Shown here: one piece after another, positions 1,823-58,343 of the stretch
Layout of the letters: each line of letters starts with the position of its first letter
How positions within the stretch are numbered: the first letter of the stretch is position 1
Assembly (NCBI RefSeq): GCF_003426815.1
Contig: NZ_QKYK01000010.1
Location: 1 to 64,000 of the forward strand
Reading direction: 5' to 3'
DNA length: 64,000 nt
Source: Desertimonas flava
GTDB lineage: Bacteria; Actinomycetota; Acidimicrobiia; Acidimicrobiales; Ilumatobacteraceae
The notes under the pieces: generated by a model
What the model was told of the DNA's origin: nothing
The model's database searches: none
What the model saw: only the letters and a program-made list of their open reading frames with translations
Program-made: the position numbers and the translations under genes

Positions 1823-4120
1823 TCAGTCCTGGGCGGTGGCGATGGTCGGCGGCCGTGGCGTCACGTTGTTGCCGTCGCTGCCGGCCATGCACTCGGTGCC
1901 CGTTCGCGGCCAGTCGACCGCGGCCCGGTCGCTGTCGAGATCGAGCGGCTCGGACAGCGACGGGATCGGCAGGCGCGCCTGGTCGGCCAGCCCCATGAAC
2001 ATGCACTTCACCACCGGCGCTGCGGCCCGGGAGCCGAAACCCGACTTCTCGAGGTAGGCGACGACCGTGTAGGTGTGCGCCGGGTTCGGGTCGTTGTAGT
2101 TGAAGGCGGCGAACACCGACGAGTCGTTCCACCCGTACGAGTTGGCGCCCTGGGCCGTGCCCGTCTTGCCGGCCAGGGGAATCGTCCAGTTGAGCGAGTT
2201 GTAGAACTGGCCCTCCATCAGCTCGCCGGCGGTGGTGCTGCGACCGTTGCGCCCGTTGCCGAGGATGTTGTCCCGCAGGCCGTAGAGGATGAGATCGCGG
2301 TACTCCTGCGGCATCGGCACGTCACGCCACTCCGGAGCCATTCCCTGCACCAGGACCGCCCGGGACAGGTCGACGAACCCGGGTTGCGGGCTGGCCGGCG
2401 TGTTCGGCGCGTAGATCGCCTGCACCACCCGCGGGGTGAGCCACTTGCCGTTGTTTGCCAGCGTGGAGTAGGCCGTGGCGAGCTGGATCGGCGTGGCGGC
2501 CAGGAGACCCTGGCCGATCGACAGGTTGATCACGTCGCCCAGCAGCAGGTTCGGCTGTTCGCCCTCGGCGAGCACCCCGCGCTCCACCAGGTCGGCCTTG
2601 TTGGCGTTGGTGGGCACCCGGCCGTCGTACTCGCTGGGCAGGTCGATGCCCGTGTCGCGGCCGAACCCGAACTCCATCAGCCAGCGCGAGAGCAGCTCGT
2701 GCTCGGTGCCCTCGCCTGCTTGGAACATCTTCTCGGCCAGCCAGTAGAAGAACCCGTCGCTCGACACCGCCAGGGCGCCGGCGGCGTCGAGCCGCTGGTA
2801 CACACACGGTCGTCCGTTGCCACAGACGCTGTTGCGCCACGAGCACTTCCACCCGTTCTGCCGGCACTCCTCCGGGTCGATCGAGCGCGCCTCGTAGATG
2901 CCGTCGTCGTCGTACGTCGAGCCCGTCTCCATGATCTCCGGCCCCGCCATCAGCGCCGACCAGATGACGAACGGTTTGAACGTCGAGCCGAGGTTGTACT
3001 GCCCCTGCACCGCGCGGTTGGTGAGCGAGGCCTGGTCGGGATCGTCGCGCGGCTCTCCCGCGCTGTTGAGGACAGGATTGCCGTCGCGGTCGAGCAACGG
3101 GTGCTTGAACAGCTCGTCGAACTTCTCCCGACCGATGTCGGCGCCGAACCAGCGGTTGTCGTAGGTTGGATAGCTGGCCATCGCGGCGACCTGGCCGGTC
3201 TGGTTGTTCATCACGACGACCGAGCCGGCGGGCGCGTCGTAGTTCACGTACAGACCGCACGTGAGGCATTCGAGCTGGCGCGTGCCGTCGGGTTTGCGCA
3301 CCATCTGGTTGCGGGCTTGCCAGTTGCGCTGGATGTGCAGGCGGGTGACGAGCAGCTGCTCGGCGTAGAGCTGGATGTCCCCGTCGATCGAGAGCTGGAC
3401 GTCCTGGCCGTTGATCGGCTCGGTGCGGCTGATCTCGCGGAGCACCCGCCCGGACGAGTCGATCTCGTAGACGGCCCGGCCCCACTCGCCGTGGAGGACG
3501 GTCTCGTACGACTGCTCCACACCGGCTCGCCCGACGTCCTCGCCCTGGTTCGACGTGTCGTAGCCGAGGTCCTTGTAGTAGTCCTCGTCCTCGGCCGTGA
3601 TCGAACCCATGTAGCCGATGACGTGCGACGCCAGGGGCGCATACGGGTACACCCGGCGCCAGTCGTACTCGAACGCCACGCCCGGGAAGTCCTCGATCCG
3701 CTCCATGATCGCGGCGATCGTGCCCTCGCCGACGTCCTCCTGGAGCGGCAGCGGCCGCAGCGGGTTGTAGCCCCCGACGTCATACCGGCGCTCCATCTCC
3801 TCGACCGGCTGGTTGAGCCAGCCCGAGAGCCGCTCGAACAGCAGGGCCCGGTTGGAATCCCGGCGGATCGCGTCCCGCGACACGACGACGTTGACGACGC
3901 GCTCGTTGCCCGCCAGGAGGCGGCCGTCGACGTCGAAGATCTGCCCCCGCTCCGGCGGGATCAGCAGCGTGCGGGTGTTGCGCGAGTCCACCTGCGCCTG
4001 GAGCCCGTCGGCCTCCACGGCCTGCAGGAACCACAGGCGGGCACCGAGGGCGCCGAAGAGGATGATGCCGACCACCGCCAGCATCCCCAGCCGCGCCGCG
4101 CGCTTGTCGGACGTGGGCAT
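1823..4120 (-). CDS. mrdA: Penicillin-binding protein 2 (class B transpeptidase, elongasome)
   Basis: A 765-residue class B PBP with one N-terminal membrane anchor (about residues 10-33), a dimerisation/pedestal domain and a C-terminal transpeptidase domain. The active-site motifs are STFK (S379-K382), SSD (453-455) and KTG (652-654). It should cross-link peptidoglycan made by RodA, encoded directly downstream. At 765 residues it is longer than usual for PBP2. Unusual features are six cysteines in the extracytoplasmic part: C285 and C288, then C419, C426, C433 and C439 in an insert between the first two motifs. A copy of the dispersed 101-bp repeat family begins 8 bp upstream of the ATG. Confidence 0.93.
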   Translation of the reverse strand: MPTSDKRAARLGMLAVVGIILFGALGARLWFLQAVEADGLQAQVDSRNTRTLLIPPERGQIFDVDGRLLAGNERVVNVVVSRDAIRRDSNRALLFERLSGWLNQPVEEMERRYDVGGYNPLRPLPLQEDVGEGTIAAIMERIEDFPGVAFEYDWRRVYPYAPLASHVIGYMGSITAEDEDYYKDLGYDTSNQGEDVGRAGVEQSYETVLHGEWGRAVYEIDSSGRVLREISRTEPINGQDVQLSIDGDIQLYAEQLLVTRLHIQRNWQARNQMVRKPDGTRQLECLTCGLYVNYDAPAGSVVVMNNQTGQVAAMASYPTYDNRWFGADIGREKFDELFKHPLLDRDGNPVLNSAGEPRDDPDQASLTNRAVQGQYNLGSTFKPFVIWSALMAGPEIMETGSTYDDDGIYEARSIDPEECRQNGWKCSWRNSVCGNGRPCVYQRLDAAGALAVSSDGFFYWLAEKMFQAGEGTEHELLSRWLMEFGFGRDTGIDLPSEYDGRVPTNANKADLVERGVLAEGEQPNLLLGDVINLSIGQGLLAATPIQLATAYSTLANNGKWLTPRVVQAIYAPNTPASPQPGFVDLSRAVLVQGMAPEWRDVPMPQEYRDLILYGLRDNILGNGRNGRSTTAGELMEGQFYNSLNWTIPLAGKTGTAQGANSYGWNDSSVFAAFNYNDPNPAHTYTVVAYLEKSGFGSRAAAPVVKCMFMGLADQARLPIPSLSEPLDLDSDRAAVDWPRTGTECMAGSDGNNVTPRPPTIATAQD

Positions 4121-45523: not shown

Positions 45524-47347
45524 TCAGGTGTAGCTGCGGGCCTGGATCTCGAACAGGTCGGCGTACTGGCCACGGCGCCGGAGCAGCTCGTCGTGCGTCC
45601 CGACCTCGACGACGTGGGCGCCGTCGAGAACGACGATGAGGTCGGCGCTGCGGACCGTCGAGAACCGGTGCGAGACCAGCACCGTGATGCGGCCGTTGTC
45701 GTTGGCGGCCCGTGCTGCGGCGGCGTAGCGCTCGAACAGCGAGTGCTCGGTCTCGGCGTCGAGCGCCGAGGTGGGCTCGTCGAGCACGACGACAAGGGGT
45801 TCGTCGCGCATGAAGCCCCGGGCCAGCGCGAGCTTCTGCCACTGCCCGTGCGACAGCTCGGCGCCGTCGTCCCAGGTGGGTCCCAGTTGCGTTGCGAGTC
45901 CGGCGGGGAGGCGTTCGACGACGTCGGTGGCGCCCGACCGGACGATCGCTGCGTCGACCGCATCGATGGAGTCGAGGCGCTCGAGATCACCGACGCCGAC
46001 GCTCTGTGACGCGACGTACTCGAAACGGAAGAAGTCCTGGAACGCTCCCGCCATCCGGCGACGCCACGCGCTCGGCGACATCTCGGTGACGTCGATGCCG
46101 TCCACGGTCACGATCCCGGAGGTCGGCCGATACATGCCGGCGAGCAGCTTGACCAGCGTCGACTTGCCGGCGCCGTTCTCGCCGACGATGGCCACGACGG
46201 TTCCCGCCGGTATCTCGAACGTCGCCCCGTCGATCGCCAGGCGGTCGGTTCCGGGATAGCGGAACGAGACGTCGTCGAACCGGATGCCGGTACGCAGGCG
46301 GCCGGGCGGTTGCTGCGTCGCTCGCTTCTCGGCGGCGGCCGCGTAGTCCTCGAGCCAGGCGAGCCGGACAGACGACTCCATCCACACGCCACGCAGGAAC
46401 CCGAGCTCTCCGGCCGACTGCGCGACGTATTGCGACAGCCGCTGCCCGGCGGCGACCACCAGCACGACCTCGGCGACGCTGCGGTCGAGCCGGCGAGCGA
46501 CCCAGGCGATGCCGAGGGCGTAGGCGGCGCCGAAGACCGCCCACGCCGCCGCCGACCAGCGCGCCGACACCCACCGGGCGCCGGCGACGGGCCGTTCCCA
46601 CGTGGCCCGGGTGGCGCGCCGCCGCGACCGCAGCTCGGGGCCGAGACCGGCGAGGCGGACCTCCTTGGCCGGCCCTGCGGTCGTCGCCACGTCGAACACG
46701 TGGCGGGCCAACCGGTCGTGGTGGGCGTTGGCCTCGAAGACCCGGTTCTCCACACCGGGCCGCCAGAACGACACCGCCAACGCCGGGGCGCCGAAGGCGA
46801 GCAGCAGGACGAGGGCGGGATGCACCGAGGCCAACAGGGCGGCCGTGATGACGAGCCGGACGATCAGGGCGATGTTGGTCAGCATCGACGAAAAGAGGTG
46901 ATCGAGCGCGAACGACTGATCGCGGAGGAGAGCGAGACGGTCGAGGTAGTCCGGTCGCTCCTGGTGCTCGATCGTCGGCACGCTGGCCTGCAGGCCGGCA
47001 ATGTGTCCTTCGACGTGCATGGCGAGACGGTCACGGAACCGCCTCGAGACGCGGTCGTTGATCACGCTGAGGTACCACGTCAGCGTGGCCGAACCGGCGA
47101 GTCCGGCCGCTGCCGTGTAGACCCGGCCCCGGTCGCCGTCGACGATGCCCTCGGTGAGGATCTTCAACCAGAGCGCCAGCACCGCGTCGGGGAGCATCGT
47201 CAGCAACGTCATCCCGAGCGACAGGGCCAGCAGCCGCGGCTCCACCCTCCACCCCAAGCGCATCAATCGCCACATCGCCGGCAGCGGCCGCGGCATCGGC
47301 TGGTCCGCGTCGGGCGGAGTGGCGAGGCCCGAATCAGGCGAGCTCAT
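45524..47347 (-). CDS. ABC exporter half-transporter (fused permease-ATPase), second of pair
   Basis: A 607-residue half-transporter: six N-terminal helices (to about residue 330), then the nucleotide-binding domain. Walker A is GENGAGKST, Walker B VVVLDEPTSALD and the H-loop VSHRFSTVRS. The signature reads LSHGQ instead of LSGGQ, so one composite ATP site of a heterodimer may be weak. The start ATG 47347 overlaps the upstream half-transporter by 14 bases. The substrate is unknown; such pairs export drugs, lipids or peptides. Confidence 0.9.
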   Translation of the reverse strand: MSSPDSGLATPPDADQPMPRPLPAMWRLMRLGWRVEPRLLALSLGMTLLTMLPDAVLALWLKILTEGIVDGDRGRVYTAAAGLAGSATLTWYLSVINDRVSRRFRDRLAMHVEGHIAGLQASVPTIEHQERPDYLDRLALLRDQSFALDHLFSSMLTNIALIVRLVITAALLASVHPALVLLLAFGAPALAVSFWRPGVENRVFEANAHHDRLARHVFDVATTAGPAKEVRLAGLGPELRSRRRATRATWERPVAGARWVSARWSAAAWAVFGAAYALGIAWVARRLDRSVAEVVLVVAAGQRLSQYVAQSAGELGFLRGVWMESSVRLAWLEDYAAAAEKRATQQPPGRLRTGIRFDDVSFRYPGTDRLAIDGATFEIPAGTVVAIVGENGAGKSTLVKLLAGMYRPTSGIVTVDGIDVTEMSPSAWRRRMAGAFQDFFRFEYVASQSVGVGDLERLDSIDAVDAAIVRSGATDVVERLPAGLATQLGPTWDDGAELSHGQWQKLALARGFMRDEPLVVVLDEPTSALDAETEHSLFERYAAAARAANDNGRITVLVSHRFSTVRSADLIVVLDGAHVVEVGTHDELLRRRGQYADLFEIQARSYT

Positions 47348-49139
47348 CGAGGACCACCTCCTCCCCCGTCTGCTCGTCCACCTCGACGAAACGGGACGCT
47401 TGCAGGTCAAACATCCGCCGGTACCTCCCGTCGAGAGCGATCAGCTCGTCGTGGGTCCCCAACTCGACCACCCTGCCCTGTTCGAGCACGCAGATGCGGT
47501 CGGCCTGGCGCACCGTCGAGAAGCGGTGCGAGACGAGCACGGTGGTGCGACCGCGGGTCGCCGCCAGCACGCGCTCGAAGATCTCCGCCTCGCCGCGCAC
47601 GTCGAGTTGGGCCGTCGGCTCGTCGAGCAGCACGACACCGGCACCCCGCCGGACCGCCGAAAGTGCTCGGGCCAGTGCGACGCGCTGCCACTGTCCCCCC
47701 GACAGGTCGGTGCCACCGGGATAGCCGGTGGCGAGGATGCGATCGAGCGAGGCCACACCAGATCCGCCAGCATCCGCCAGGGCCGCTTCCAGTTCACCGT
47801 CACTCACCCCGCCTCCCGGCGCCAGGTTGTCGCGCAGCGTGAAGTGGTAACGGACGAAGTCCTGGAAGACCGCAGTGACGTGGCGCCGCCAGACGTCGAG
47901 GTCGAGGTCGCGAAGGTCGGTGCCGTCGACCTCGACCGCTCCGGACGTCGGGTCGTAGAACCGGCAGATCAACTTGGCGAGCGTGGTCTTGCCGGCGCCG
48001 TTCTGCCCGACGATGGCGAGCGACGTCCCGGCCGGCACGGTGAGATCGAGCCCGTCCAGCACCAGGGGCCCGTCGGGGTAGCCGAACGAGACGTTGCGGA
48101 ATCGCAGTTCCGGCCCTCGTCCCCGTGCCGGGGTCGCCGTCCCGCCAACACCGCTGGGCAGTCGGCCGGCCTCGCCCATCGACGCCGACAACCGGGAGAT
48201 CGCCGCCACCGGCGCCGCCATGCCGTCGAGCGCCCAGCCCAGCCCACCGAAGGCGATGCCGCTCACTCCGACGGCGGCCTGGGTGGCGATGAGCGCCGCC
48301 CCGAGCCCGAGTCCCCCGTCGGCGGCCCGCTCCGCCAGCGACCAGAACACCAGGACGTTGGATGCGACGAGCGCGAGCAGGCACACGATCGTCGACCGCT
48401 CCCGGAGCCGCGTCGCCTCGAACTGAAGGTCACCGAGTACGCGGCGCTGGGCCCGGAAGCGATCGACGATCCAGTCGCCGAGACCGAACAACCGCAGTTC
48501 CTTGGCCGCCGGGGGGTCGACGGCAAGACGATACGAGTACTCCGCGTGGCGCTGGGCCCTCTGCACCTCGGGCGTGTTGCGGTCGTGCCACACGGCGCTC
48601 TCGCGCAACAGGACGTGGGTCGATGACCATGCGGCGACGAGCAGGATCGCCTGCCACCACCCCAGCGTCGCCAGGACCACCGCCGACGAGACACCGGTGA
48701 CGATGAGCACGAGGCCGTCGCTGATGAAGTTCATCGAGTACGACACCGGTGGTCCGGTCATGCCGATGTCGAAGTCGCGCGCCATCGTCAGGTCACCGAT
48801 CAGGTCCGGGCGCTCGAGGTGGGCGATCCCGGCCGGCGACGTCGTCACCTCCATGAGGCGATCGTGCAGGTAGGTGGAGACGCGCTCGCCGAGTGAATAG
48901 CCGACCGCCTCGTGCAACGGGCCGACGACCTGGGCGGCGACGAAGAGCAGACCGAACACGGTGAGCGGCGCGCCGAGTCCCCGACCGTGCTCGATCTCGT
49001 TCACCAGCCAGCCGACGGTGATGCCGAGCAACGGCGGGAGCACGCCGCGCAGGATCAGTCCGGTCCACCAGCAGAGCGCCCGTGCAGGCGCGGCACGCCG
49101 GACGGCGGCGAAGAATCCCCACTCCGGACTGGACGACAT
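47334..49139 (-). CDS. ABC exporter half-transporter (fused permease-ATPase), first of pair
   Basis: A 601-residue half-transporter. The membrane domain fills the first half. The ATPase domain has Walker A GQNGAGKTT, signature LSGGQWQRVALARAL, Walker B VVLLDEPTAQLD and H-loop VSHRFSTVRQAD, all canonical. It starts at ATG 49139 (MSSSPEWGFF). A longer frame to 49490 has no family-like sequence. It should pair with the 45524 product. The divergent DedA gene begins 134 bp away. Confidence 0.9.
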   Translation of the reverse strand: MSSSPEWGFFAAVRRAAPARALCWWTGLILRGVLPPLLGITVGWLVNEIEHGRGLGAPLTVFGLLFVAAQVVGPLHEAVGYSLGERVSTYLHDRLMEVTTSPAGIAHLERPDLIGDLTMARDFDIGMTGPPVSYSMNFISDGLVLIVTGVSSAVVLATLGWWQAILLVAAWSSTHVLLRESAVWHDRNTPEVQRAQRHAEYSYRLAVDPPAAKELRLFGLGDWIVDRFRAQRRVLGDLQFEATRLRERSTIVCLLALVASNVLVFWSLAERAADGGLGLGAALIATQAAVGVSGIAFGGLGWALDGMAAPVAAISRLSASMGEAGRLPSGVGGTATPARGRGPELRFRNVSFGYPDGPLVLDGLDLTVPAGTSLAIVGQNGAGKTTLAKLICRFYDPTSGAVEVDGTDLRDLDLDVWRRHVTAVFQDFVRYHFTLRDNLAPGGGVSDGELEAALADAGGSGVASLDRILATGYPGGTDLSGGQWQRVALARALSAVRRGAGVVLLDEPTAQLDVRGEAEIFERVLAATRGRTTVLVSHRFSTVRQADRICVLEQGRVVELGTHDELIALDGRYRRMFDLQASRFVEVDEQTGEEVVLDELA

Positions 49140-49272
49140 TCGAGGCACAGTCCTCCATCGTTGCCGACGGGCGATATCCGTCGGTCCGGGACGCGCCGGA
49201 CCGCAGTTCTCACGGCGACGACTGTCCCGTCCGCTGCGGCGGGTACACGGAGCAGGACCAGGGAGGTGCGAC

Positions 49273-49938
49273 ATCGCCAGCAGGATCATCGAGACGATCG
49301 CGAGGGCCGACGGCGTGACGCTCGCGCTCATCGTGCTGGCGATGGTGCTCGCCGAGAGCCTGATCCTCACCGACTTCGTGGTGCCCGGCGAGGTCGGCCT
49401 GGTCGCGGCCGGCGCCGCCGCCGCCCACAACGACACGGCGATCGCGCTCGTGATCGTGGCGGCGACGATCGGGGCCGTCGCCGGCGACACCGCCGGCTAC
49501 ACCGTCGGGCGAACGGTCGGCACTCGTGCGATCGATCGATGGCGGTGGTTGCGCAGATTGCGCCCGTCCGTCCAGCGAGCGCACCGGTACTTCACGAAGC
49601 GGGGCGGTGTCGCCGTCGCCGTGGCCCGCTGGGTGGGCGCCCTGCGCGCCGTCGTGCCGGTCGTCGCCGGGACCGCCGGGATGCCGGCGGCCCGCTTCCT
49701 GGCCTGGGACGTTCCGAGCGCGGCGGCGTGGTGCACGGTGGTCGCCACGATCGGCTTCGTGTGGGGCGACGACATCGCCGACGTCGTCGACCGGGTCGGA
49801 ATCGGCGTCTCGATCGCCGCGATCGCCGGCATCGTGCTCGTCGCGTTGATCTGGCGCCGTCGCAGGACGACCGAGGGGTCGTCCCCCGGTGACGCCCACG
49901 AGACGAGCCGGGCCGATCTCGTGGACGTCCATGGTTGA
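49273..49938 (+). CDS. DedA-family membrane protein; start codon not conventional
   Basis: About 221 residues. The DedA/SNARE-associated pattern is clear: AMVLAESLILTDFVVPGEVGLVAAGAAAAHND, DTAGYTVGRTVGTRAIDR, FTKRGGVAVAVARWVGALRAVVPVVAGTAGM, then further helices. DedA proteins are flippases for undecaprenyl phosphate or related lipids. No in-frame ATG, GTG or TTG lies near the expected N-terminus. ATC 49273 gives a typical N-terminus (ASRIIETIARADG) and has GGGAGG six bases upstream. The nearest conventional in-frame start, a GTG around 49147, would add about 40 Arg-rich residues. Confidence 0.8.
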   Translation: MASRIIETIARADGVTLALIVLAMVLAESLILTDFVVPGEVGLVAAGAAAAHNDTAIALVIVAATIGAVAGDTAGYTVGRTVGTRAIDRWRWLRRLRPSVQRAHRYFTKRGGVAVAVARWVGALRAVVPVVAGTAGMPAARFLAWDVPSAAAWCTVVATIGFVWGDDIADVVDRVGIGVSIAAIAGIVLVALIWRRRRTTEGSSPGDAHETSRADLVDVHG

Positions 49939-49977
49939 CCGGCGGTGCTGACGGGTACCGGTGGCCAGGAGAGGACG

Positions 49978-50811
49978 ATGGACCGACCGAGTGATCCGCC
50001 CGCCGCACCAGCGACGGCACGGCGACTGCATGCCTTGGACGCCATCCGCTCGTGGCCCGGCGAATCGCGCCGGCCCGCGAGCTGGCTCATCCACGTGCAC
50101 CACGAGCCCAACCGAGTATCGGAACGCGAGCTCGTGTGGGAGCGCGTGGAGCCGTGGGAGCGGATCGTCGCGGCGCGCGACTTCGAGGAGCGGGAGTGGC
50201 CGGTTCCTCACGCCGCGTCGGTTCGCTCGGCCATTCGCTACCACGTCCCCGCCGATCGACGCGCCGCCGTCGACGAGCTCGACCTCGGCCTGGTCGTGGA
50301 TGACGACGGCTTGGTGGAGGTGGTCGGCCCCGACCTGCGGACCAACCTGCTCGCACTCAACCTGATGCACGACGTGGTGACGGGGGTGCTCGCCCCCGGC
50401 GACGCCCGCCGTCGCTACGCCGACGTGACCACCACCGCCCCCGACGGTCCGCCTCACGCCGACCTGGTCAAATGCCGGTTCGACGATGTCACTCCGCTCG
50501 AGCCGGGAGCGGTGCCTCCGAGCGATCCACAGCCGGTCCCGCCGGCCGGCGCCTCGGCGCCATCCGGCAGCGTGCCGTCGACTGCGTCGCCGATCGTCGG
50601 GGTACACGAGGCCATGCCCACACCTCCACCCGACTCGGATCCGACGAGCAACCGCGACACCGACCAGGTGAACGAGCGCCGGATGACCCGTCGCCACGGG
50701 CACGATGTGGACGAGGCCGCCGAGCGGTCCTCGGGCTTCGATCTGGACGATGACCGTAGCGGTGACGATGCCGGTGACCGGCAGGCGTCCCCCGGCGAGG
50801 CGCCGGCATGA
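49978..50811 (+). CDS. Protein of unknown function, acidic C-terminal tail
   Basis: A 277-residue cytosolic protein with AGGAGAGG upstream of ATG 49978. The first 160 residues look folded: ASWLIHVHHEPNRVSERELVW, then GPDLRTNLLALNLMHDVVTGVLAPGDARRRYAD, which resembles hypothetical proteins from actinobacteria and cyanobacteria with an NxLALNL...DIV.G pattern. From about residue 165 it is Pro/Ser-rich and then strongly acidic (DLDDDRSGDDAGD) and probably disordered. The stop overlaps the FMN reductase start. The function is unknown. Confidence 0.7.
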   Translation: MDRPSDPPAAPATARRLHALDAIRSWPGESRRPASWLIHVHHEPNRVSERELVWERVEPWERIVAARDFEEREWPVPHAASVRSAIRYHVPADRRAAVDELDLGLVVDDDGLVEVVGPDLRTNLLALNLMHDVVTGVLAPGDARRRYADVTTTAPDGPPHADLVKCRFDDVTPLEPGAVPPSDPQPVPPAGASAPSGSVPSTASPIVGVHEAMPTPPPDSDPTSNRDTDQVNERRMTRRHGHDVDEAAERSSGFDLDDDRSGDDAGDRQASPGEAPA

Positions 50812-51389
50812 CCATCGCCGTGGGCTGCATCGTCGGCAGCACCTCGTCCGTCTCCATCAACCGCAAGCTGCTGAACGGGGTCATCGCGCTCGAGCGCGAG
50901 CGCGACGTCGGCGAGGAGGATGCGATGGAGTTCATCGACATCCCGATCAATCACCTCCCGCTGTACACGTACGACGCCGACGACGACTATCCGCCAGAAG
51001 CCCTGGAGCTCAAAGACGCCATCTCGCGCAGCGACGCCCTCATCATCGCCACACCCGAGTACAACCGGTCCATCCCGGGTGCGCTCAAGAACGCCATCGA
51101 CTGGGCATCGCGGCCATACGGCGAGAGCGCCTTCACCGGCAAGCCCGTCGGGATCGTCGGCGCGTCGGTCGGCGCGCCCGGCACGGCGATGGCTCAACAA
51201 CACCTCCGCAACATCCTCGCCTACCTCGACGCGCCGACACTCGGACAGCCGGAGATCTACGTGCAGTACACCGAGGAGCGATTCGCCGGCGACGGCACCA
51301 TCATCGACGCGTCCACCCGGGAACTCCTCGGCGACTGGCTGACCGCCTTACGGGACTGGATCGGGCGGGTCGCCCACGATCGCGCCTGA
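50808..51389 (+). CDS. NAD(P)H-dependent FMN reductase
   Basis: A 193-residue flavodoxin-fold reductase. The FMN phosphate loop is GSTSSVSINRKL (about residues 10-21), and the conserved ATPEYNRSIPGALKNAIDW (about 80-98) contacts the flavin. KPVGIVGASVGAPGTAMAQQHLR is the third family motif. These enzymes supply reduced flavin or reduce quinones and chromate. It is translationally coupled to the preceding unknown protein. Confidence 0.92.
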   Translation: MTIAVGCIVGSTSSVSINRKLLNGVIALERERDVGEEDAMEFIDIPINHLPLYTYDADDDYPPEALELKDAISRSDALIIATPEYNRSIPGALKNAIDWASRPYGESAFTGKPVGIVGASVGAPGTAMAQQHLRNILAYLDAPTLGQPEIYVQYTEERFAGDGTIIDASTRELLGDWLTALRDWIGRVAHDRA

Positions 51390-51441
51390 TCGGGCGGTCC
51401 GGAGCGCGACTGCGCTCGGCCCGAGAGCGGTACATGGGGTC

Positions 51442-52017
51442 ATCGACACTGAGCTCATTCCCCTCGTCGAAGACATCGCTCGCCGGCTCGCCGGGCGTCA
51501 GGTGGCCACCGCCGAATCGTGCACGGCCGGCCGGGTGAGTACCGCCCTGGCGTGCGCCGACGATGCCCAGTCGTTCCTCCGCGGCGGGCTCGTCAGCTAT
51601 CAGGTGCAGACCAAGCGGCGTCTCCTCCACGTCGATGCCGACAGCGTCCTCAGTAGCGAGGCCGCCGTCGAGATGGCCGTCGGAGCGTGTCATCATCTCC
51701 ACGCCGACGTGGCGGTCGCCACCACGGGTCTCGCGGGCGGCGAGCCGCAGGACGGCGTGGAGGTCGGCACGGTGTTCATCGCCACGTGTGTGTCGGGCCG
51801 GACGGCCGCCCGCCGATATCGATTCGACGGCGACCCACTCGAGGTGTGCGACGCCGCGACGCGTCAGGCGCTCATCGATCTCGCCCGGGCCCTACGGGCC
51901 ACGGAGAACGGAGACATCGGCCCGTCGACCGGGACGGTCGGTACCAGGCCCGGCTCGAGCGAGCCGACTGCCGACATCGCGCAGGGGGTACCCAACGGTC
52001 ATGACGCTCTTCGGTAG
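51442..52017 (+). CDS. CinA C-terminal domain (nicotinamide-nucleotide amidohydrolase-like) protein; start damaged or unusual
   Basis: About 191 residues of a stand-alone CinA_C/PncC-like protein: VATAESCTAGRVSTALA carries the active-site serine region, and AVATTGLAGG the later motif. Coding similarity starts before the only in-frame conventional start (GTG 51502), with DTELIPLVEDIARRLAGRQ. No ATG, GTG or TTG lies in frame back to a stop at 51340. One more G in the GGGG at 51436 would put ATG 51434 in frame; otherwise ATC 51442 is the start. The C-terminus extends past the domain and overlaps the next gene. Confidence 0.78.
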   Translation: MDTELIPLVEDIARRLAGRQVATAESCTAGRVSTALACADDAQSFLRGGLVSYQVQTKRRLLHVDADSVLSSEAAVEMAVGACHHLHADVAVATTGLAGGEPQDGVEVGTVFIATCVSGRTAARRYRFDGDPLEVCDAATRQALIDLARALRATENGDIGPSTGTVGTRPGSSEPTADIAQGVPNGHDALR

Positions 52018-52360
52018 TTCGCCCGGCCCCGACGAACGCGAGCCGTCGCAGCCCTGGGCCTGCCAGCTCATCAGCTTCGAGATCGCCGGCGGGGTGGTCG
52101 TCCTCGACCTGATCGCGCTCGAGGACCGCCCGGGCTTCGCGATGCAGTGGCCTCGATCGACGCCGTTCACCGTCCACTTGGCCGTGGCTCACGTGCCCGT
52201 TCGTGCCGTCGAACGCGTGCTGCGGGCGTGGACCGACTCGAGCGACGTCGTGGCGATCACGCACGGCGAGACCGACGGCAGGGTGTGGCTCAACTTCGCA
52301 TCGGACAACACCAGGCTCGTCACGCACCTCGCCGACCCCTCACCCGGTTCGCGCCGCTGA
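52001..52360 (+). CDS. Small protein of unknown function
   Basis: A 119-residue protein from ATG 52001, overlapping the CinA-like gene by 17 bases. The sequence alternates strands and helices (PWACQLISFEIAGGVVVLDLIAL, TPFTVHLAVAHVPVRAVERVL) and ends in polar residues. There is no signal peptide or membrane helix. I recognise no family. Spacing suggests coexpression with the CinA-like protein. Confidence 0.6.
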   Translation: MTLFGSSPGPDEREPSQPWACQLISFEIAGGVVVLDLIALEDRPGFAMQWPRSTPFTVHLAVAHVPVRAVERVLRAWTDSSDVVAITHGETDGRVWLNFASDNTRLVTHLADPSPGSRR

Positions 52361-52410
52361 CACGCCGGGAACGCATCGTTCCGACCTGGCCGGCGTCGTC
52401 CGCCCACCGC

Positions 52411-53700
52411 TCAACGTGCGGCGAGGCGGCACACGTTGGCGGCGAGCAGCCGACGGGCCAGAACCAGGCGGCTCGGGCCGTCGAGACCGACCAGGCTCGA
52501 GACTCGCCGGCCTGATCGCGCGCTCGCCAGCTCGACCACGGCGGGAACGACCACTTCAGGTACCCGCCACGTCGTCGGACCCATCACGAGCCGCCAGTGC
52601 CCGTCGGAGATGGGTTCGGCCCGGGGGCAGTCCGTCGCCCACGAGATCACGTCGTCGTCACCGAGGGTGTCGGCCAGAGCGGCCGCCCTCACGAACCCGG
52701 TCCGGTCGTGGATCGGGACCCCGCGGGCACGCACACGATCGACCGTCGCCTCCACGTCGGCACCCCTCAGCGTCGAGATGGCAGACTCGACAGCGTGCTC
52801 GATATCGACGGCCAGCCGGTTGCGCCTCTCCCGCGGGTGACCAAGCGGGAGCGGCAGATCCAGGTCGCTCGCGCCGTCGCGTAGCAGGCGTTCGATCACG
52901 CCCCGGTACGTCCGGGCGAACACGCCAAGCGTCAGATGCAGAGACGGCTGGTCGATGGTCTCGGCGCGGTGACGGACGCCCGCCGGGATGTACAAGACGT
53001 CACCGGGTCCGACGTCGAGGTCGCCGAGGCCGACGACGCTCCAGCGCTTGCGCCCGAACACCTGCAGGGCAAAGACCTCGTGGCCGTCTGCGTGCTCGCC
53101 GAAGCCCTGCGCCCCGGCCGGCGCGAGGTAGGCGTTGAGCTGGACCGGATGCCCGGCGTCGGCGGCGAACTCATCGGCAAATCGTGCGGCTGGAGGCCAC
53201 GTTCGGTGCAATGACTGCAGCACCACCGTGGCGCCGCCGCGCATGAGCGCCGCGACCCGCAGTCCATCGACCGTGCCGTCGACCAGCCGACCGCCGAGTC
53301 GCGCTGACGAGCAGTACTCCTCGGGGTCGACCGGTCGACCGTCTTTGATCATTCGAACCGTCGGCCGTCGCGGCGACGAACCGATCAGCGCGTCGACGTC
53401 GTCGAGGGACAGCACGTGGTCGAACGACCCCGCGCCCCGGCGCCAGAGCGGCGCCCGTCCCCACTGCCGGTCGAGGAACGGTTCGAGGTCCCCGACGACG
53501 AGTTCGAACGCGCTCGGCGACGACTCAGGCTTCGTCGCCGGTGTCCTTCGTTCCTTCGCCGCCGGCGTCCCGATCCTCCTCGGCTTCGGTCGGCTCGTCA
53601 CCGGTGTCGGCGTTGCCGCCCCCGCCGGTGTCGCGGTCTTCATCGTCTTCAGTGGGGCGCTCGTCGACCAGGTCGGCATCGGTGATGGAAGCATCGTCAC
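52411..53700 (-). CDS. JmjC/cupin-domain oxygenase (ribosomal-oxygenase-like); start uncertain
   Basis: A non-heme iron, 2-oxoglutarate-type oxygenase fold. The iron site is visible in GEHADGHEVFALQVFGRKRW (H, D, and later H in VLYIPAGVRHRAET). The N-terminal FELVVGDLEPFLDRQWGRAPLW is typical of the RoxA/NO66-like JmjC group, which hydroxylates residues in proteins. The conserved part begins near 53511. No ATG, GTG or TTG lies between there and the stop of the small peptide gene (53525). The frame opens upstream to GTG 53700, overlapping that gene completely in another frame. Confidence 0.8.
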   Translation of the reverse strand: MTMLPSPMPTWSTSAPLKTMKTATPAGAATPTPVTSRPKPRRIGTPAAKERRTPATKPESSPSAFELVVGDLEPFLDRQWGRAPLWRRGAGSFDHVLSLDDVDALIGSSPRRPTVRMIKDGRPVDPEEYCSSARLGGRLVDGTVDGLRVAALMRGGATVVLQSLHRTWPPAARFADEFAADAGHPVQLNAYLAPAGAQGFGEHADGHEVFALQVFGRKRWSVVGLGDLDVGPGDVLYIPAGVRHRAETIDQPSLHLTLGVFARTYRGVIERLLRDGASDLDLPLPLGHPRERRNRLAVDIEHAVESAISTLRGADVEATVDRVRARGVPIHDRTGFVRAAALADTLGDDDVISWATDCPRAEPISDGHWRLVMGPTTWRVPEVVVPAVVELASARSGRRVSSLVGLDGPSRLVLARRLLAANVCRLAAR

Positions 53701-53704
53701 TCAT
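53525..53704 (-). CDS. Acidic two-repeat small peptide next to the JmjC oxygenase
   Basis: A 59-residue frame from ATG 53704 with coding-like codon positions (G in first, G/C in third). After an N-terminal stretch of about 17 residues come two repeats with a 21-residue period: T18-E37 and T39-E58, identical at about 14 of 20 positions, each with EDRD, a Gly run and DTGDE. It is very acidic and lacks a signal peptide. The JmjC gene follows in another frame. It could be a substrate of the oxygenase, but no homologue is known to me. Confidence 0.6.
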   Translation of the reverse strand: MSDDASITDADLVDERPTEDDEDRDTGGGGNADTGDEPTEAEEDRDAGGEGTKDTGDEA

Positions 53705-53739
53705 GCCCGCCCGTACCCACGGGACATCGGCAGCAGACC

Positions 53740-53767
53740 TGACGGGATGTGCCGGCACGTCCCGTCA
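53740..53767. terminator. Hairpin after the GAF-LuxR gene (TGACGGGATGTG family)
   Basis: TGACGGGATGTGC and GCACGTCCCGTCA form a 13-bp stem with one mismatch and two loop bases. The last three bases are the stop codon of the GAF-LuxR gene on the minus strand. Nearly the same stem occurs at 24702-24732. Confidence 0.6.
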
Positions 53768-54877
53768 GACGTCGTCGGCGAAGAAGCCATCGGGTCCGAC
53801 CGGCCGACCGAGGCGCGGCGCGTAGATGCCGAAGAAGACGTCGGCGATCAGTTCACGCCGGCTGTTGACGCCCGCCTTCTGGAAGACCGTCTTGAGGTGA
53901 TCCTGCACCGTGTAGGTCGACACCTGCAGCGCGGCGGCGATCTCCTTGGTGGATGAACCGCGCAGGACTTCGACGACGACATCGGTCTCACGGGAGGACA
54001 AGCCGATGGCCGCGCTCAGGATGGCGACGACATCGGGCGGGCCGGCCTCGTCGATCGTGACGATGCCCCGCCGATCGCCCAGCGGAGCGCTCCGCATGAC
54101 CAACCAGGTGCCGTCGGCGGTGCGGGCCCGCTGAGCAACCGTGCGGCCGTTGGCGGCAGCGACGGCGACGGCCGAGAGCACCGACGGCTGCGATCCGTGC
54201 CCGCGATCGGCCGCCCCGAGGCGCTCGAGCCAGCGTTGGGCCGCCGGCGTCGCCTCGACGACGTCCGCACCGTTCACCACCACGACGGCCGGCCCCTGCC
54301 GCTCCGGATCGATCTGGACCGGTTCGACGACCGAGCGTACGAGCGAGGCTCTGACGGCCGCCGTGATCGGCGGAGCGACGAGGCGCAGGAACCGCTGCTC
54401 GTCGTCGCTGAACGCAGCCGCACCCGTCCGGCGCATGAGCCCCGCCCCACCCCAGCCGGCGCGCCGGTGGCGCAGCACCACCCGCAGCTCCTGACCGATC
54501 CCCATCGAGGCGAGATGCTCCCCGACCTCGGCGTGGCCGGCGCTCGCCGGCGGGCTGGAGGTGGCGTCCTGCACGATCAGCGGGGTCTGGGCCGAGAGCA
54601 GCCCGCGGTAGTGGCCAGGCGCCTGGGTCACGTACTCGAGCTCCATGAAGCGCACGGCATCGTTGCCGCTCTCGTCGAGATTGCGGCCGACCGCCGACGT
54701 CAGCATCGTCGTCGCCGGGTCGAACGTGCTCCAACACGACGCGTCGGCCGGCACCACCTGGTCGACGAGGGCGTCGACGGCACACAGCAACTCGGCCGTC
54801 ACCAGCCCGCGGGCCGACAGGCCCGCCAGCTCTCCGGCCACCCGCTCCGCCCGCAGCTCGCTCCACACGACCCGCAT
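53765..54877 (-). CDS. LuxR family transcriptional regulator with GAF-like sensor domain
   Basis: A 370-residue regulator. An N-terminal GAF-like region (about residues 35-180; WSTFDPATTMLTSAVGRNL, APGHYRGLLSAQTPLIVQD) and a PAS-like middle section precede the LuxR HTH (about 305-362). The HTH reads LSSRETDVVVEVLRGSSTKEIAAALQVSTYTVQDHLKTVF. ATG 54877 is chosen; ATG 54910 would add 11 residues. It is divergent from the VOC protein, about 150 bp apart. Confidence 0.9.
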   Translation of the reverse strand: MRVVWSELRAERVAGELAGLSARGLVTAELLCAVDALVDQVVPADASCWSTFDPATTMLTSAVGRNLDESGNDAVRFMELEYVTQAPGHYRGLLSAQTPLIVQDATSSPPASAGHAEVGEHLASMGIGQELRVVLRHRRAGWGGAGLMRRTGAAAFSDDEQRFLRLVAPPITAAVRASLVRSVVEPVQIDPERQGPAVVVVNGADVVEATPAAQRWLERLGAADRGHGSQPSVLSAVAVAAANGRTVAQRARTADGTWLVMRSAPLGDRRGIVTIDEAGPPDVVAILSAAIGLSSRETDVVVEVLRGSSTKEIAAALQVSTYTVQDHLKTVFQKAGVNSRRELIADVFFGIYAPRLGRPVGPDGFFADDV

Positions 54878-55027
54878 CTTTGCAGCCGTTGTCGCGAGCC
54901 ACCATCCCATCAATCTGGGAGGGCTGCTCCACCCCAGATCTCCGGGATCGACGGCCAGCCGGTGGCGGCGCAACATGCCGTCGTCCGCTGCAGTTCGCCG
55001 CGGACACGCCATCGAAAGGACCACGAC

Positions 55028-55480
55028 ATGATTCCGGTGACCCTCAACCACGTCGCTCTCGACGTCGCCGATCGGGAGCGCTCGATCACCTTCTACGCCG
55101 AGTTGCTCGGCGCCGAGGTGGTCGCCGAAGACTCCGAGCACAGGATCACCTTCCTGCGGCTGCCCGGCTCGGATCGCTACAGCGACCTCGCTGTCCACGA
55201 ACACCCCGACCTCGCCGGTGCGTACCCGCCGCACCAGATTCGGATGGCCCACATCGGTTGGGAGGTCGACGAGCCCGCCCATCTCGTCACGGCGTTCGAC
55301 TTCTTCACCGAGCGGACACGGGTGGTGCTCGCGGCCGACTTCCGAGTCGCCCGTTCGGTGATGGGCCTCGATCCCGACGGCCACGTCGTCGAGTTCGAGC
55401 TGTTCACCCCAGGCGCCACCGGCGAGCCGGGCTTCGCCGTCCTCGACATCGACGCCCTGCGAGCGGTCGCGCTCGCCTGA
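55028..55480 (+). CDS. VOC (glyoxalase/bleomycin resistance) family protein
   Basis: A 150-residue metal-dependent VOC-fold protein. LNHVALDVADRERSITFYAELLG is the first beta-alpha-beta unit, with the metal-binding His, and MGLDPDGHVVEFELF provides the C-terminal Glu ligand. AAAGGA lies eight bases before the ATG. Relatives include glyoxalases, extradiol dioxygenases and resistance proteins; the reaction here is not evident. Confidence 0.9.
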   Translation: MIPVTLNHVALDVADRERSITFYAELLGAEVVAEDSEHRITFLRLPGSDRYSDLAVHEHPDLAGAYPPHQIRMAHIGWEVDEPAHLVTAFDFFTERTRVVLAADFRVARSVMGLDPDGHVVEFELFTPGATGEPGFAVLDIDALRAVALA

Positions 55481-55571
55481 TTCCTCCCGGTGAGGAGGGA
55501 CGGAGCCGTCGCGGCGCGGAGTGGTCTTCCGGCCCTACTGGGTGCCCGACGGCGACGGGATACTCGACGTC

Positions 55572-56984
55572 ATGCCGTCCGACAACATGGTCCCGTCACT
55601 GCAATTCCTGGGCGGCACGGGAACAGTGACCGGCTCGAAGTACCTCGTGCGGACCGATTCCAGCCGAGTGCTCGTCGACTGCGGTCTGTTCCAAGGTCTG
55701 CGGGCACTCCGGACCCGGAACTGGGATCCGCTGCCCTTCGACGCGGCGTCGATCGACGCCGTCGTGCTGACGCACGCTCACGTCGATCACTGCGGTTACC
55801 TGCCGCGCCTGGTCGCGGCGGGCTATCGGGGACCGATCTACGCGACACCCACCACCGGCGACCTCGTCCGCATCGTCCTGCCGGACTGCGCCCACCTGCA
55901 GGAGGAGGAGGCCGAGTACGCCAACCGCAAGGGTTTCTCGAAACACGATCCGGCGCTCCCCCTGTACACGAAGGAGGACGCCGAGCGGGCGCTCTCACTG
56001 CTGCGGCCGGTCCCGTTCCACACCGACGTCGGCATCACGCCCGACATCGGCATCCGCTTGTCGCGGGCCGGTCACATCCTCGGTGCGGCAACGGTGCGAC
56101 TGACGCTGGGACGGTCCGGTCGATCGGTGGGGTTCAGCGGAGACCTCGGCCGCGGAAGTCATCCGTTCCTCGTTCCACCCGATCCTCCGCCGGCAGTGGA
56201 CACCCTGCTCGTCGAGTCCACCTACGGCGACCGGGAGCATGTCGACGAGGATCCGAGCAACCGGCTCGCCGAGGTCATCGAACGCACGGTGGGCAGGGGT
56301 GGCAGCGTCCTCATCCCGGCGTTCGCCGTCGACCGGACCGAGGTGATCCTGCATCACCTCGCCCGCCTCGTCGCCGAGGGTCTCGTTCCCCGCGAGATCC
56401 CCGTGTTCGTCGACAGTCCGATGGCGCTCGCCGCACTGCGCGTCTATCGAGAGGCGATCGCCCGACGCGATCCCGACATCCGTCCGGACGACGCCGGCGC
56501 CGACCCGTTCGCCGTGCCCCGGCTCACCGAAGTCCACGACGTCGAGCACTCGAAGGCCCTGAACCGCCCGTCGGAGCCATCGATCGTCATCTCGGCATCG
56601 GGAATGGCGACCGGTGGACGGGTGGTCCACCACCTGGCCCACTGGCTTCCCGACACTCGCAACACCGTGCTGCTCGTCGGCTACCAGGCGGACGGGACCC
56701 GCGGGCGCGTGCTGATCGACGGGGCGAGCGAGCTGAAGATGCTCGGCCGGTACGTGCGGGTCCGCGCCGACGTGGTCACCCTCCCCCAGTTCTCGGTCCA
56801 TGCCGACGCCAGCGAGCTGCTCGCGTGGCTGGCCGCAGCGTCGCCGGCGCCCGAGACCGTGTACGTCGTCCACGGTGAGCCGACCGCCAGCCGCTCGCTG
56901 GCGGCTGCCATCGCCGACTCGCTGGACTGCACGACGGTCGTCCCCCGCTACGGCGAGCGCGTCCGCCTCGACCGGCTGTCCTGA
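55572..56984 (+). CDS. Metallo-beta-lactamase/beta-CASP RNA-processing nuclease
   Basis: About 470 residues. LTHAHVDHCGYLPRLVAAG gives the HxHxDH zinc motif, and GFSGDLGRGSHPFL carries a later metal-binding aspartate. The beta-CASP insert and RMMBL end contain VESTYGDREH, SASGMATGGRVVHHL and the final histidine in FSVHADASELL. Such proteins are RNA exo/endonucleases of the YSH1 type. I prefer ATG 55572; ATG 55587 and GTG 55521 are alternatives. It opens the stress-like block. Confidence 0.92.
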   Translation: MPSDNMVPSLQFLGGTGTVTGSKYLVRTDSSRVLVDCGLFQGLRALRTRNWDPLPFDAASIDAVVLTHAHVDHCGYLPRLVAAGYRGPIYATPTTGDLVRIVLPDCAHLQEEEAEYANRKGFSKHDPALPLYTKEDAERALSLLRPVPFHTDVGITPDIGIRLSRAGHILGAATVRLTLGRSGRSVGFSGDLGRGSHPFLVPPDPPPAVDTLLVESTYGDREHVDEDPSNRLAEVIERTVGRGGSVLIPAFAVDRTEVILHHLARLVAEGLVPREIPVFVDSPMALAALRVYREAIARRDPDIRPDDAGADPFAVPRLTEVHDVEHSKALNRPSEPSIVISASGMATGGRVVHHLAHWLPDTRNTVLLVGYQADGTRGRVLIDGASELKMLGRYVRVRADVVTLPQFSVHADASELLAWLAAASPAPETVYVVHGEPTASRSLAAAIADSLDCTTVVPRYGERVRLDRLS

Positions 56985-57000
56985 GCGGACCCGCTGGTCG

Positions 57001-57471
57001 TCACTCCGGCGAGGCGCGGCGCACGGATCGGACGGCGGGGTGATCGGCGACGAGGAAGCGCCGACCGGTGATCTCGTTGGGGACGATCCGGATGATGCGG
57101 GGCTTCGGCGACAGCTGCCACGGGAACAGCGGCAGATCGGCGGCGTCGAAGCGCTCGTGGAGGTTGCGCACCTCGGTGGCCCGTCCCTTCACGATGACGC
57201 TCCACGCGATCCCCTCGACGGCATCGTATCCATCGGCCTCGAACGCCACGGCGTCGGTCGTGGCGATCGATGCCAGCTTCGTCCCCTCCGCCGTACGGAA
57301 CACGACGGTGCCATGGTCGACGATGAAGTTGATCGGGAAGATCTCGGGACCTTCCGCCACCACGACGGCAAGGCGACCGACGTCGCTCTCGCGCAGGAGC
57401 TCGAGACAGTCGTGCTCGTCGAGGACCTCGACGCCGGGCTGGCCGAGCGGGCGTTCGACGTCGGGGCCCAT
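57001..57471 (-). CDS. Pyridoxamine 5'-phosphate oxidase-like flavin-binding protein
   Basis: A 156-residue split-barrel protein. VGRLAVVVAEGPEIFPINFIVDHGTVVFRTAEGTKL is the FMN-binding core of the PNPOx-like superfamily. Active-site residues for true pyridoxal synthesis are not evident, so it is more likely an F420- or flavin-dependent reductase or a heme-binding member. The ATG overlaps the stop of the universal stress protein gene by one base (TGATG). It converges with the nuclease gene. Confidence 0.88.
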   Translation of the reverse strand: MGPDVERPLGQPGVEVLDEHDCLELLRESDVGRLAVVVAEGPEIFPINFIVDHGTVVFRTAEGTKLASIATTDAVAFEADGYDAVEGIAWSVIVKGRATEVRNLHERFDAADLPLFPWQLSPKPRIIRIVPNEITGRRFLVADHPAVRSVRRASPE

Positions 57472-58343
57472 CAAGCCGGCTCCGCCGAGGGGATGACGAC
57501 GACCGGGCACGGCGCGTGATGGACGACATGCTGGCTGACCGAGCCGAGGAGCAGGCCGGCGAAGCCGCCGCGTCCGCGGGATCCGACGACGACGAGTGAC
57601 GCGGAACCGGCGGCATCGAGAATGGCGCGGGCCGGCGTGTCGTCGACGACGAGCGGCTCGGGCGGCGCGACGAGACCGTGCAGGTCGGCACGGGCGAGCT
57701 GGTCGGCGACGAGTCGACGGGCGTCACGCTCGAGGTACGGGTAGTCCACGACCGGCGTGACGGGAACGACGAGTGGCACGATCGCCGGCTGCCACGCGTG
57801 GACCACATCCAACGCCGCGTGCCGGGTCCGGGCCTCGTCGAGCGCCCACTCAAGCGCCCGCTGCGATGTCGGGGACCCGTCGACGGCGACCACGATTCGC
57901 TCCGATGATCCCGCCTCGGCGGGCCGGGACTCGCGCACGATGGCGACGGGGACCTTCGAGTGGTGCGCGCACTGCTGGCTCACCGAGCCGAGGAGCATGC
58001 CGCGGAACCCTCCGAGCCCGCGAGCCCCGACGACGAGCAGATCGGCGTCCTCCGACGCCTCCAGAAGCGCACGGGCGGGGAGGTCGCAGATGACCCGCTG
58101 CTCGATCGTCTCCGCCTCGTCGGCAACAGCTCGGGCGATGATCGCCCGCAATGCCGACGCGGCGTCCGCTTCGGTGTAGTCCGGGCGGAACGCATCGTCG
58201 CTTGTGCCGTCGTGCTGACCGAGGAAGCTCCACGCCAGCACGGCCGTGAGCGTTCCACCCCGCAGATGTCGCTCACGGACTGCCCATCGCACGGCTTCAG
58301 CGGCCGCTGTGGACTCGTCGACTCCGACGACGATGCGTCCCAT
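57471..58343 (-). CDS. Tandem-domain universal stress protein
   Basis: A 290-residue protein with two UspA domains. The first (1-143) contains MGRIVVGVDESTAAAEAVRWA and GARGLGGFRGMLLGSVSQQ; the second (about 149-286) contains VVAVDGSPTSQRALEWALDEA and GSRGRGGFAGLLLGSVSQH. Both end with the ATP-binding GxxG...GS(V)S pattern, so both probably bind ATP. A DosR-like box lies 60 bp upstream of its ATG. It is cotranscribed with the PNPOx-like gene, as in the mycobacterial dormancy regulon. Confidence 0.94.
   Translation of the reverse strand: MGRIVVGVDESTAAAEAVRWAVRERHLRGGTLTAVLAWSFLGQHDGTSDDAFRPDYTEADAASALRAIIARAVADEAETIEQRVICDLPARALLEASEDADLLVVGARGLGGFRGMLLGSVSQQCAHHSKVPVAIVRESRPAEAGSSERIVVAVDGSPTSQRALEWALDEARTRHAALDVVHAWQPAIVPLVVPVTPVVDYPYLERDARRLVADQLARADLHGLVAPPEPLVVDDTPARAILDAAGSASLVVVGSRGRGGFAGLLLGSVSQHVVHHAPCPVVVIPSAEPA

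Follow-up and report, generated by a model that had tools for sequence, protein, structure and literature searches.

A NO66-type JmjC oxygenase and an acidic repeat peptide encoded side by side in Desertimonas flava: a putative RiPP-like modifier and precursor pair

The window analysed here is a 64,000-nucleotide stretch of Desertimonas flava DNA (assembly GCF_003426815.1, contig NZ_QKYK01000010.1, positions 1 to 64,000 of the forward strand). On its reverse strand, it carries a gene for a 59-residue acidic repeat peptide, a putative precursor (53525..53704, ATG start, stop included), followed directly by the gene for a JmjC-type 2-oxoglutarate oxygenase. Our reading, to which we give a probability of about 0.62, is that the two genes form a precursor and modifier pair resembling those of ribosomally synthesised and post-translationally modified peptides (RiPPs), in which Asp side chains would most simply be oxidised. 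As in RiPP systems, the putative precursor is gene-encoded and consists of a leader-like head and a core, and a dedicated enzyme is co-encoded and co-inherited with it; that this enzyme modifies the peptide is what we infer.

The peptide gene was found as the initial annotation had described it, with a head followed by two repeats, directly before and overlapping the JmjC frame. In order, the peptide comprises a 16-residue leader-like head, MSDDASITDADLVDER (53657..53704, reverse strand), with the family motif (L/I)-x-D-x-D-(I/L/M); a 21-residue core-like repeat, PTEDDEDRDTGGGGNADTGDE (53594..53656, reverse strand); a second 21-residue core-like repeat, PTEAEEDRDAGGEGTKDTGDE (53531..53593, reverse strand); and a final Ala. 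Both repeats begin with PTE and end with DTGDE, and both were delimited by the positions that are invariant in repeats of this type. The EDRD, Gly-rich part and DTGDE noted earlier in each repeat were all present, while the repeat length of 20 residues given with them had to be corrected to 21. The two repeats have diverged mainly at silent sites, with a proportion of synonymous differences (pS) of 0.72 (10.5/14.5 sites) and of nonsynonymous differences (pN) of 0.18 (8.5/48.5 sites). Pfam and NCBIfam hold no family for the window peptide and gave no name above cut-off to eight of its relatives. A 'daptide' match in the peptide of the relative L036 covered nine residues (E 0.009; 15.8 bits against a cut-off of 25) and was judged to be chance.

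The oxygenase open frame (52411-53700, reverse strand) overlaps almost the entire peptide gene in the +1 frame. The folded part, assigned to the ROX/NO66 type from Pfam, PDB, AlphaFold2 and Foldseek comparisons, occupies 52411..53526 on the reverse strand (stop included) and begins at about 53526, at the peptide stop, where the first ten residues have a predicted local distance difference test score (pLDDT) of 91. The window oxygenase matched the Pfam family JmjC_2 (PF08007) with 72.3 bits (cut-off 22; E 3.5e-20), and the solved structures of NO66, MINA53 and YcfD matched it in the PDB. The AlphaFold2 model, built from 62 aligned sequences, had a mean pLDDT of 93.1, and Foldseek ranked NO66 first (4ccn, E 2.9e-21); in this model and match, the full-length architecture is present, with the JmjC domain, a middle helical part and a C-terminal winged helix. 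The relative L107 gave a full-length fold match with a Z score of 26.4, a root-mean-square deviation of 4.2 and 389 aligned residues. Counting residues from 53526, the first two Fe(II) ligands are H145-A-D147 (53086..53094, reverse strand; by alignment with NO66) and the third is H186 (52969..52971, reverse strand). K160 (53047..53049, reverse strand) aligns with the 2-oxoglutarate-binding Lys of NO66 (GRKRW/GRKLW). H145, D147, H186 and K160 are invariant in the 62 aligned sequences. The earlier identification of a JmjC-type enzyme that keeps its iron ligands is thus borne out for a full-length PF08007 protein, and extends to the 2-oxoglutarate Lys. The substrates of NO66, MINA53 and YcfD are ribosomal proteins. 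The window enzyme resembles these proteins (YcfD also being named RoxA) in the fold over its whole length, the C-terminal winged helix, the HxD...H ligands and the 2-oxoglutarate Lys; its group is instead accompanied by a dedicated gene for an acidic repeat peptide.

To describe the pairing beyond the window, a scan of one genome per species was performed, from which 80 further loci were kept out of at least 505 confirmed relatives. In the relatives L034, L036 and L040, a window-type peptide with two PTEDD.NLDAPGE..(K/Q)DTGDE repeats is encoded directly upstream of the oxygenase, and in L035 the C-terminal end of such a peptide lies at the contig edge. A peptide finder, a regular expression combining the head motif with an acidic tail (at least 12% D/E), detected the peptide at 82 of 96 oxygenase loci, L046 having been dropped before the count, or at 80 of 93 when L052 and L053, both duplicates, and L049, a remote homologue, were left out. 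The control rate was 3 in 390 equally sized windows taken from other parts of these loci, and 0 in 10 at more distant JmjC homologues. The 14 misses include eight loci with little upstream sequence (L035, L042, L083, L084, L090, L100, L122 and L127), three in which the peptide was present by eye (L034, L045 and L129), the partly masked L081, and L049, where none was seen. In L120, the remaining miss, from a metagenome-assembled genome of the Micromonosporaceae, the peptide gene upstream of position 3347 is broken in frame inside the repeats, through either sequence error or decay. In L046 (G133:C9), a number of JmjC_2-like matches lie near one another, all on a single strand; beside the two of these places that were checked (L017 and L029), no acidic peptide was seen.

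In a sample of the phylum, 58 of 396 genomes, about one in seven and including that of the window, matched the oxygenase profile at E ≤ 1e-30. Sixty of the 64 matches were used, G000 and G011 (already included) and two further places in G483 being left out, and the finder pattern was slightly wider than in the 96-locus and control counts. At about 297 bits or above there were 51 loci. The finder detected the peptide in 44 of them; the remaining seven comprise three with at most 136 upstream bases, three (L176, L178 and L183) that carried it by eye, and L182, where there is none. Nearly all high-scoring loci with upstream sequence therefore have the peptide (47/48), and it was present in 0 of 9 loci at or below 272 bits, where a single finder hit (L198, a Gly-rich frame) was judged spurious. 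Because the high-scoring loci have the peptide and the low-scoring loci do not, the pairing appears as a property of one group of PF08007 proteins. The sample overlaps with the set of relatives (L150/L060, L154/L064 and L170/L063), which means that neither count is independent of the other. The initial annotation had named as grounds for dropping its proposal that the small frame is not conserved beside the oxygenase in relatives, or is part of it there; both were checked, and the frame was found to be conserved and separate. With 82/96 loci against 3/390 controls, and 47/48 among the high-scoring loci, the peptide is almost certainly a dedicated partner of this JmjC group.

The amino acid sequence of the peptide is under purifying selection, with pN/pS values of 0.02-0.28 in 17 of 17 pairs, hand-chosen among related loci. 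The 81 relative peptides compared, which include that of the window and that of L034 (missed by the finder and added by hand), share the layout of a head plus repeats and have a median net charge of -19. Three core types were distinguished: PTE (the window and seven relatives), DxD (for example DADGTDADG) and GADGG (for example GPADGGANPGGHDGGADGSA), whose units are mostly of 20 residues (134/153). In the PTE repeats of seven peptides, P1, T2, E3, D9, D17, G19 and D20 are invariant in 14 of 14 repeats, 12 of them distinct. When placed on the oxygenase tree, peptide type required 5 changes, against a mean of 24.2 after shuffling, and a value as low was reached in 0 of 200 shuffles. For this analysis, 4 of 62 rows were left untyped, and the seven PTE rows, L042, L045, L081 and L129 were typed by hand; L041 was typed GADGG by the script although its repeats look DxD, and a similar rule was used for the neighbour counts by type given below. 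The window groups with L034, inside a starred group of six rows of PTE type. The peptides of L040 and L036 are very similar, but their oxygenases lie far apart on the tree, where that of L040 has a long branch; this mismatch could reflect transfer, rapid evolution or an error of placement. At the contig edge upstream of the L127 oxygenase (L127:1-200), a frame with GGGGLLGGGGDASGDT-like repeats was seen, possibly a further core type. L082, L089, L114, L128 and L131, from Kribbella and one Streptomyces-labelled genome, have long peptides of roughly 145-205 residues, which end in GNSGSW in four cases and GNSGS in L131; elsewhere the ends are ..GSA or ..DA.

JmjC enzymes are known to hydroxylate the side chains of Asp, Asn, His, Arg and Lys. 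Asp is present in all 81 cores, whereas Arg is absent from 48, Asn from 38, His from 25 and Lys from 67; the finder's acidity filter conditions the Asp count, yet favours none of the missing residues. Arg, which the initial annotation had suggested alongside Asp, does not hold up well as a target, since sister peptides have Leu or Asn at the corresponding position (at position 8 of the 14 PTE repeats, Arg occurs six times, Leu seven times and Asn once) and 48 of 81 repeat regions contain no Arg; by these comparisons Arg is an unlikely target. On the same comparisons Asp is the likeliest target, with about even odds of being the main one.

The structure models suggest how the enzyme could hold such a peptide. 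In some relatives, peptide and enzyme lie in one frame, separated by a single TGA. A fusion model was made for one of these, the Gordonia locus L107, by reading this TGA as Trp; 39 sequences were aligned, and eight of them included the peptide part. In the AlphaFold2 model, the head (residues 1-10, MALDDDDITT) had a pLDDT of 95 and formed a helical turn (5-7), followed by a strand (9-11). The repeats, residues 17-85, stayed below 50, at about 39. The simplest reading of this model is that the head may be docked on the enzyme by strand pairing and that the repeats are free. The candidate head-binding part is the C-terminal winged-helix-like domain (52411..52665, reverse strand, stop included), delimited by DSSP analysis of the AlphaFold2 model, with strands at 302-306, 310-315 and 318-323, a helix at 324-335, a turn at 342-344 and a helix at 350-362. 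Its middle helix is minimal, a three-residue turn, in comparison with the three strands and three helices of the RiPP recognition element (RRE). PqqD (PF05402) was not among the Pfam matches of 47 members, and sequence comparison found no homology of the domain to PqqD/RRE, as hhalign gave a probability of 0.5 percent against 20 PqqD sequences and 0.2 and 0.4 for controls. That the fold searches returned no named RRE entry carries no weight in this respect. One PqqD-like (PF05402) match was seen in the window's genome, on another contig (G000:C23:304537-304734).

In the mechanism that we propose, the oxygenase would hold the head by the helical turn and short strand of the latter, which would keep the disordered repeats close to the active site, and would oxidise side chains in every repeat with O2 and 2-oxoglutarate. 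The simplest chemistry would be beta-hydroxylation of Asp, for example at the invariant D9, D17 and D20 of the window-type repeat, and the product may be a poly-anionic, hydroxylated and possibly metal-binding peptide in the cytoplasm. The product is probably cytoplasmic, because the pair has no transporter or protease as a conserved companion, and the only other widely conserved neighbour is a Suc_Fer-like gene, absent here. A metal-binding role of the peptide is a tentative suggestion that we think more likely wrong than right. Similarly speculative is the extension to a widespread minimal class, in which a NO66-type enzyme would be the sole modifier, its own C-terminal domain would read the (L/I)xDDD(I/M) head, Asp would be beta-hydroxylated at set positions of each repeat, the polyhydroxylated acidic product would bind or buffer a metal such as iron in the cytoplasm, and many members would have the Suc_Fer-like iron-sulfur protein as a partner.

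Several observations weigh against our reading. The case is built from sequences and models. The window enzyme has no recognisable start codon and forms a long branch (1.13) on the oxygenase tree. In the window-type loci L037, L038 and L039, the peptide gene is upstream of the oxygenase but divergent, and the high-scoring locus L182 has no such peptide. The head motif (L/I)-x-D-x-D-(I/L/M) is listed for all 81 peptides, but it is demanded by the finder, whose filter thus builds in part of the universality of both the motif and the acidic tail; L129, L178 and L183 have GPADGG..DGGADGG repeats and no (L/I)xDDD(I/M) head motif. Gly, Ala and Thr are, like Asp, present in all 81 cores. The predicted docking of the head depends on a single model, the artificial read-through fusion made for a relative and not for the window; only 8 of its 39 aligned rows were fused, and it lacks a scrambled head as a control. 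The C-terminal domain scores no better than controls against PqqD/RRE in sequence.

That the peptide is the substrate of the enzyme nonetheless appears likely from the comparisons above, and one alternative departs from our reading in the chemistry alone: another residue (His, Asn, Pro or Thr) may be modified, or the oxidation may go further, to cleavage, a crosslink or an aminomalonate-type product, perhaps depending on the clade. The strong differences between the PTE, DxD and GADGG core types would suit this, as would the other invariant residues (P1, T2, E3 and G19) and the Thr found in every core, and an oxygenase pair converting Asp to hydroxy-Asp and on to aminomalonate is mentioned in PMC13097080. 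We consider it unlikely, in that Asp is the only one of D, N, H, R and K found in all 81 cores, a count subject to the acidity filter. The peptide could otherwise be a partner or brake, with a head that binds and an acidic tail that blocks or escorts an enzyme that in reality acts, like NO66 and YcfD, on a ribosomal protein. Over its full length, the enzyme folds like a ribosomal oxygenase, and so acidic a peptide could mimic nucleic acid or a partner surface; but a brake has no obvious need for repeated units of 20-21 residues with position-specific invariants, nor for repeat types that track the enzyme tree, and the lower-scoring JmjC_2 proteins of the phylum that were examined (9 places; 10 loci) lack the peptide. 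We regard this account as improbable.

Two further explanations deny the peptide a function of its own. The small frame might be a translated leader that serves coupling or attenuation for the oxygenase, with its amino acids incidental, as the stop/start overlaps described below and the absence of a clear own start for the window enzyme would allow. Purifying selection on the amino acids in all 17 pairs speaks against it, and neither the divergent orientation in three loci nor the occurrence of all three relative frames fits a role in cis alone, which leaves it very improbable. A chance open frame in high-GC DNA might also be considered, given that 82 open frames of at least 50 residues overlap 48000-58000; it is refuted by the pairing counts, the controls and the selection, that is, by a position and sequence conserved across the phylum against a control rate of 3/390.

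The window oxygenase has no obvious start codon, although the enzyme otherwise looks intact. From 53571 to 53416, which spans from the second repeat of the peptide to the conserved N-terminal helix of the enzyme, its frame contains no ATG, GTG, TTG, CTG or AT(A/C/T), and the nearest candidate starts are GTG 53601 and ATG 53643, both within the peptide gene, or GTG 53415. A start at GTG 53415 would remove F17, which is invariant in 62 sequences, together with V11, G12 and D13, which are invariant or nearly so in a 13-sequence alignment. Initiation may lie inside the peptide gene or at an unusual start, or the sequence may contain an error. In the 78 co-directional loci, the relative frame of peptide and oxygenase was -1 in 41, +1 in 21 and 0 in 16. 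Of the 41 loci with the -1 arrangement, 37 have stop and start codons that overlap as NTGA (CTGA in 18, TTGA in 12 and GTGA in 7), and the 18 CTGA overlaps suggest CTG starts of the oxygenase. L043, L044, L047, L048, L079, L091, L103, L123 and L126 have the CTGA overlap and no ATG, GTG or TTG close by, which suggests that the enzyme initiates at CTG in these relatives. Altogether, 21 of the 78 loci were listed as having no ATG, GTG or TTG near the stop, with a shortened search range for the window, L036, L040, L074 and L109; in L040, a GTG lies 5 bases past the peptide stop. A programmed frameshift joining peptide and enzyme was rejected, because no common frameshift fits relative frames that differ in this way, and it would be simpler for the oxygenase to have a start of its own, in many loci a CTG that overlaps the peptide stop.

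A survey of the open-access literature found no description of the peptide and oxygenase pair among the titles and abstracts listed. Macrocyclisation by a 2-oxoglutarate-dependent dioxygenase is reportedly the subject of Xia et al. 2025, going by its title. BipG, a JmjC enzyme, hydroxylates ornithine (Orn) in a RiPP precursor (PMC12707348), and JmjC or cupin-like enzymes hydroxylate Orn in biphenomycin-type precursors (PMC12707348, PMC12257519). BipG, BpmG and PbsQ resemble our proposal in that a JmjC or cupin-like enzyme acts on a ribosomal precursor; they differ in that theirs is a tailoring step on Orn, among genes for a multinuclear non-haem iron-dependent oxidative enzyme (MNIO), an arginase, a B12-dependent radical S-adenosylmethionine (B12-rSAM) enzyme and a protease. 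The window pair, in contrast to the biphenomycin clusters, has no widely conserved second modifying enzyme and has an Asp-rich repeat peptide. Beta-hydroxylation of Asp in RiPPs is known from PesHI of nitrilobacillin and SmaO/SmaX of a graspetide (PMC13060819, PMC13097080); PesH is an MNIO and not a JmjC enzyme, and the available text on the PesHI and SmaO/SmaX systems contains no multi-repeat acidic core. Bregman et al. 2025 (PMC12710340) described an RRE-like order of strands and helices in fish and algal PF08007 proteins, the closest bacterial homologues of which were placed in RiPP-like contexts, and this remark is the closest prior art that we saw. The strand and helix order at the C-terminus of the window model is close to their RRE order. 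The portion of that article considered here describes no peptide, motif or product for the bacterial homologues, and PqqD similarity is undetectable in the window group.

If the widespread minimal class outlined above is real, a single scaffold for substrate recognition serves both a RiPP-modifying enzyme and the ribosomal oxygenases of animals and bacteria. The pairs would offer ready-made substrate candidates for a JmjC family otherwise known for ribosomal proteins, and a compact two-gene system in which to study the choice of peptide residues by a JmjC enzyme; they also point to a large set of peptides that Pfam and NCBIfam left unnamed in the cases tried.

The gene neighbourhood was analysed by clustering 4838 open frames of at least 80 residues from 93 loci, with L046, L049 and the duplicates L052 (= L037) and L053 (= L039) dropped before this clustering, the frame counts above and the neighbour counts by type. 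Beyond the clusters of the oxygenase and its antisense frames, of the peptide and of a Suc_Fer-like gene, none reached more than 12 of the 93 loci, smaller clusters not being annotated individually. In 56 of the 93 loci, for example L100 (L100:1229-2191) and L122 (L122:1270-2163), the Suc_Fer-like gene is the next one after the oxygenase, and the two frequently overlap by 4 bases; its identity (PF06999) was checked by Pfam in two members. Where there was room for it, it was present in 33/52 GADGG, 15/17 DxD, 8/11 untyped and 0/7 PTE loci, and in the phylum sample it accompanied 43 of 51 high-scoring and none of nine low-scoring loci. No PF06999 match was found in the window's genome. Suc_Fer-like proteins are linked to thioredoxin-like [2Fe-2S] ferredoxins.

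The absence of an adjacent transporter or protease, already remarked on in the initial annotation, extends to the relatives, with none widely conserved in the 93 loci; processing and export genes, which are usual though not obligatory for RiPPs, were not found near the pair. An ABC transporter (PF00005) is encoded at 47337-49490 on the reverse strand, past the oxygenase by about 3 kb that contain other genes, and the ABC-ATPase cluster is near just 7 of 93 loci, the window included, at varying distance and strand. Pfam analysis of the 11 window neighbour frames detected no MNIO, arginase, B12-rSAM or TldD-type protease, and the relatives show no widely conserved cluster of such genes. Upstream of the peptide gene by 60 bases lies an open frame with a LuxR-type (GerE) domain (53765..55384, reverse strand; PF00196, 6.2e-12), whose association with the pair is unproven. 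The other window neighbours are CinA, an FMN reductase, a VTT-domain protein, a glyoxalase, a beta-CASP nuclease-like protein, a pyridoxamine-oxidase-like protein, a universal stress protein and two frames without a match. A sigma-70 promoter scan of 52200-54000 found none. The window's genome contains no second copy of the oxygenase and none of the peptide at E ≤ 0.001; a 40-base DNA match on C6 was rejected as a second peptide copy, since the frames there hold no repeat peptide. In L034, an open frame about 2 kb beyond the oxygenase (L034:9682-10491) ends in IDGMCGVY, an ending that we take to resemble the mycofactocin precursor motif.

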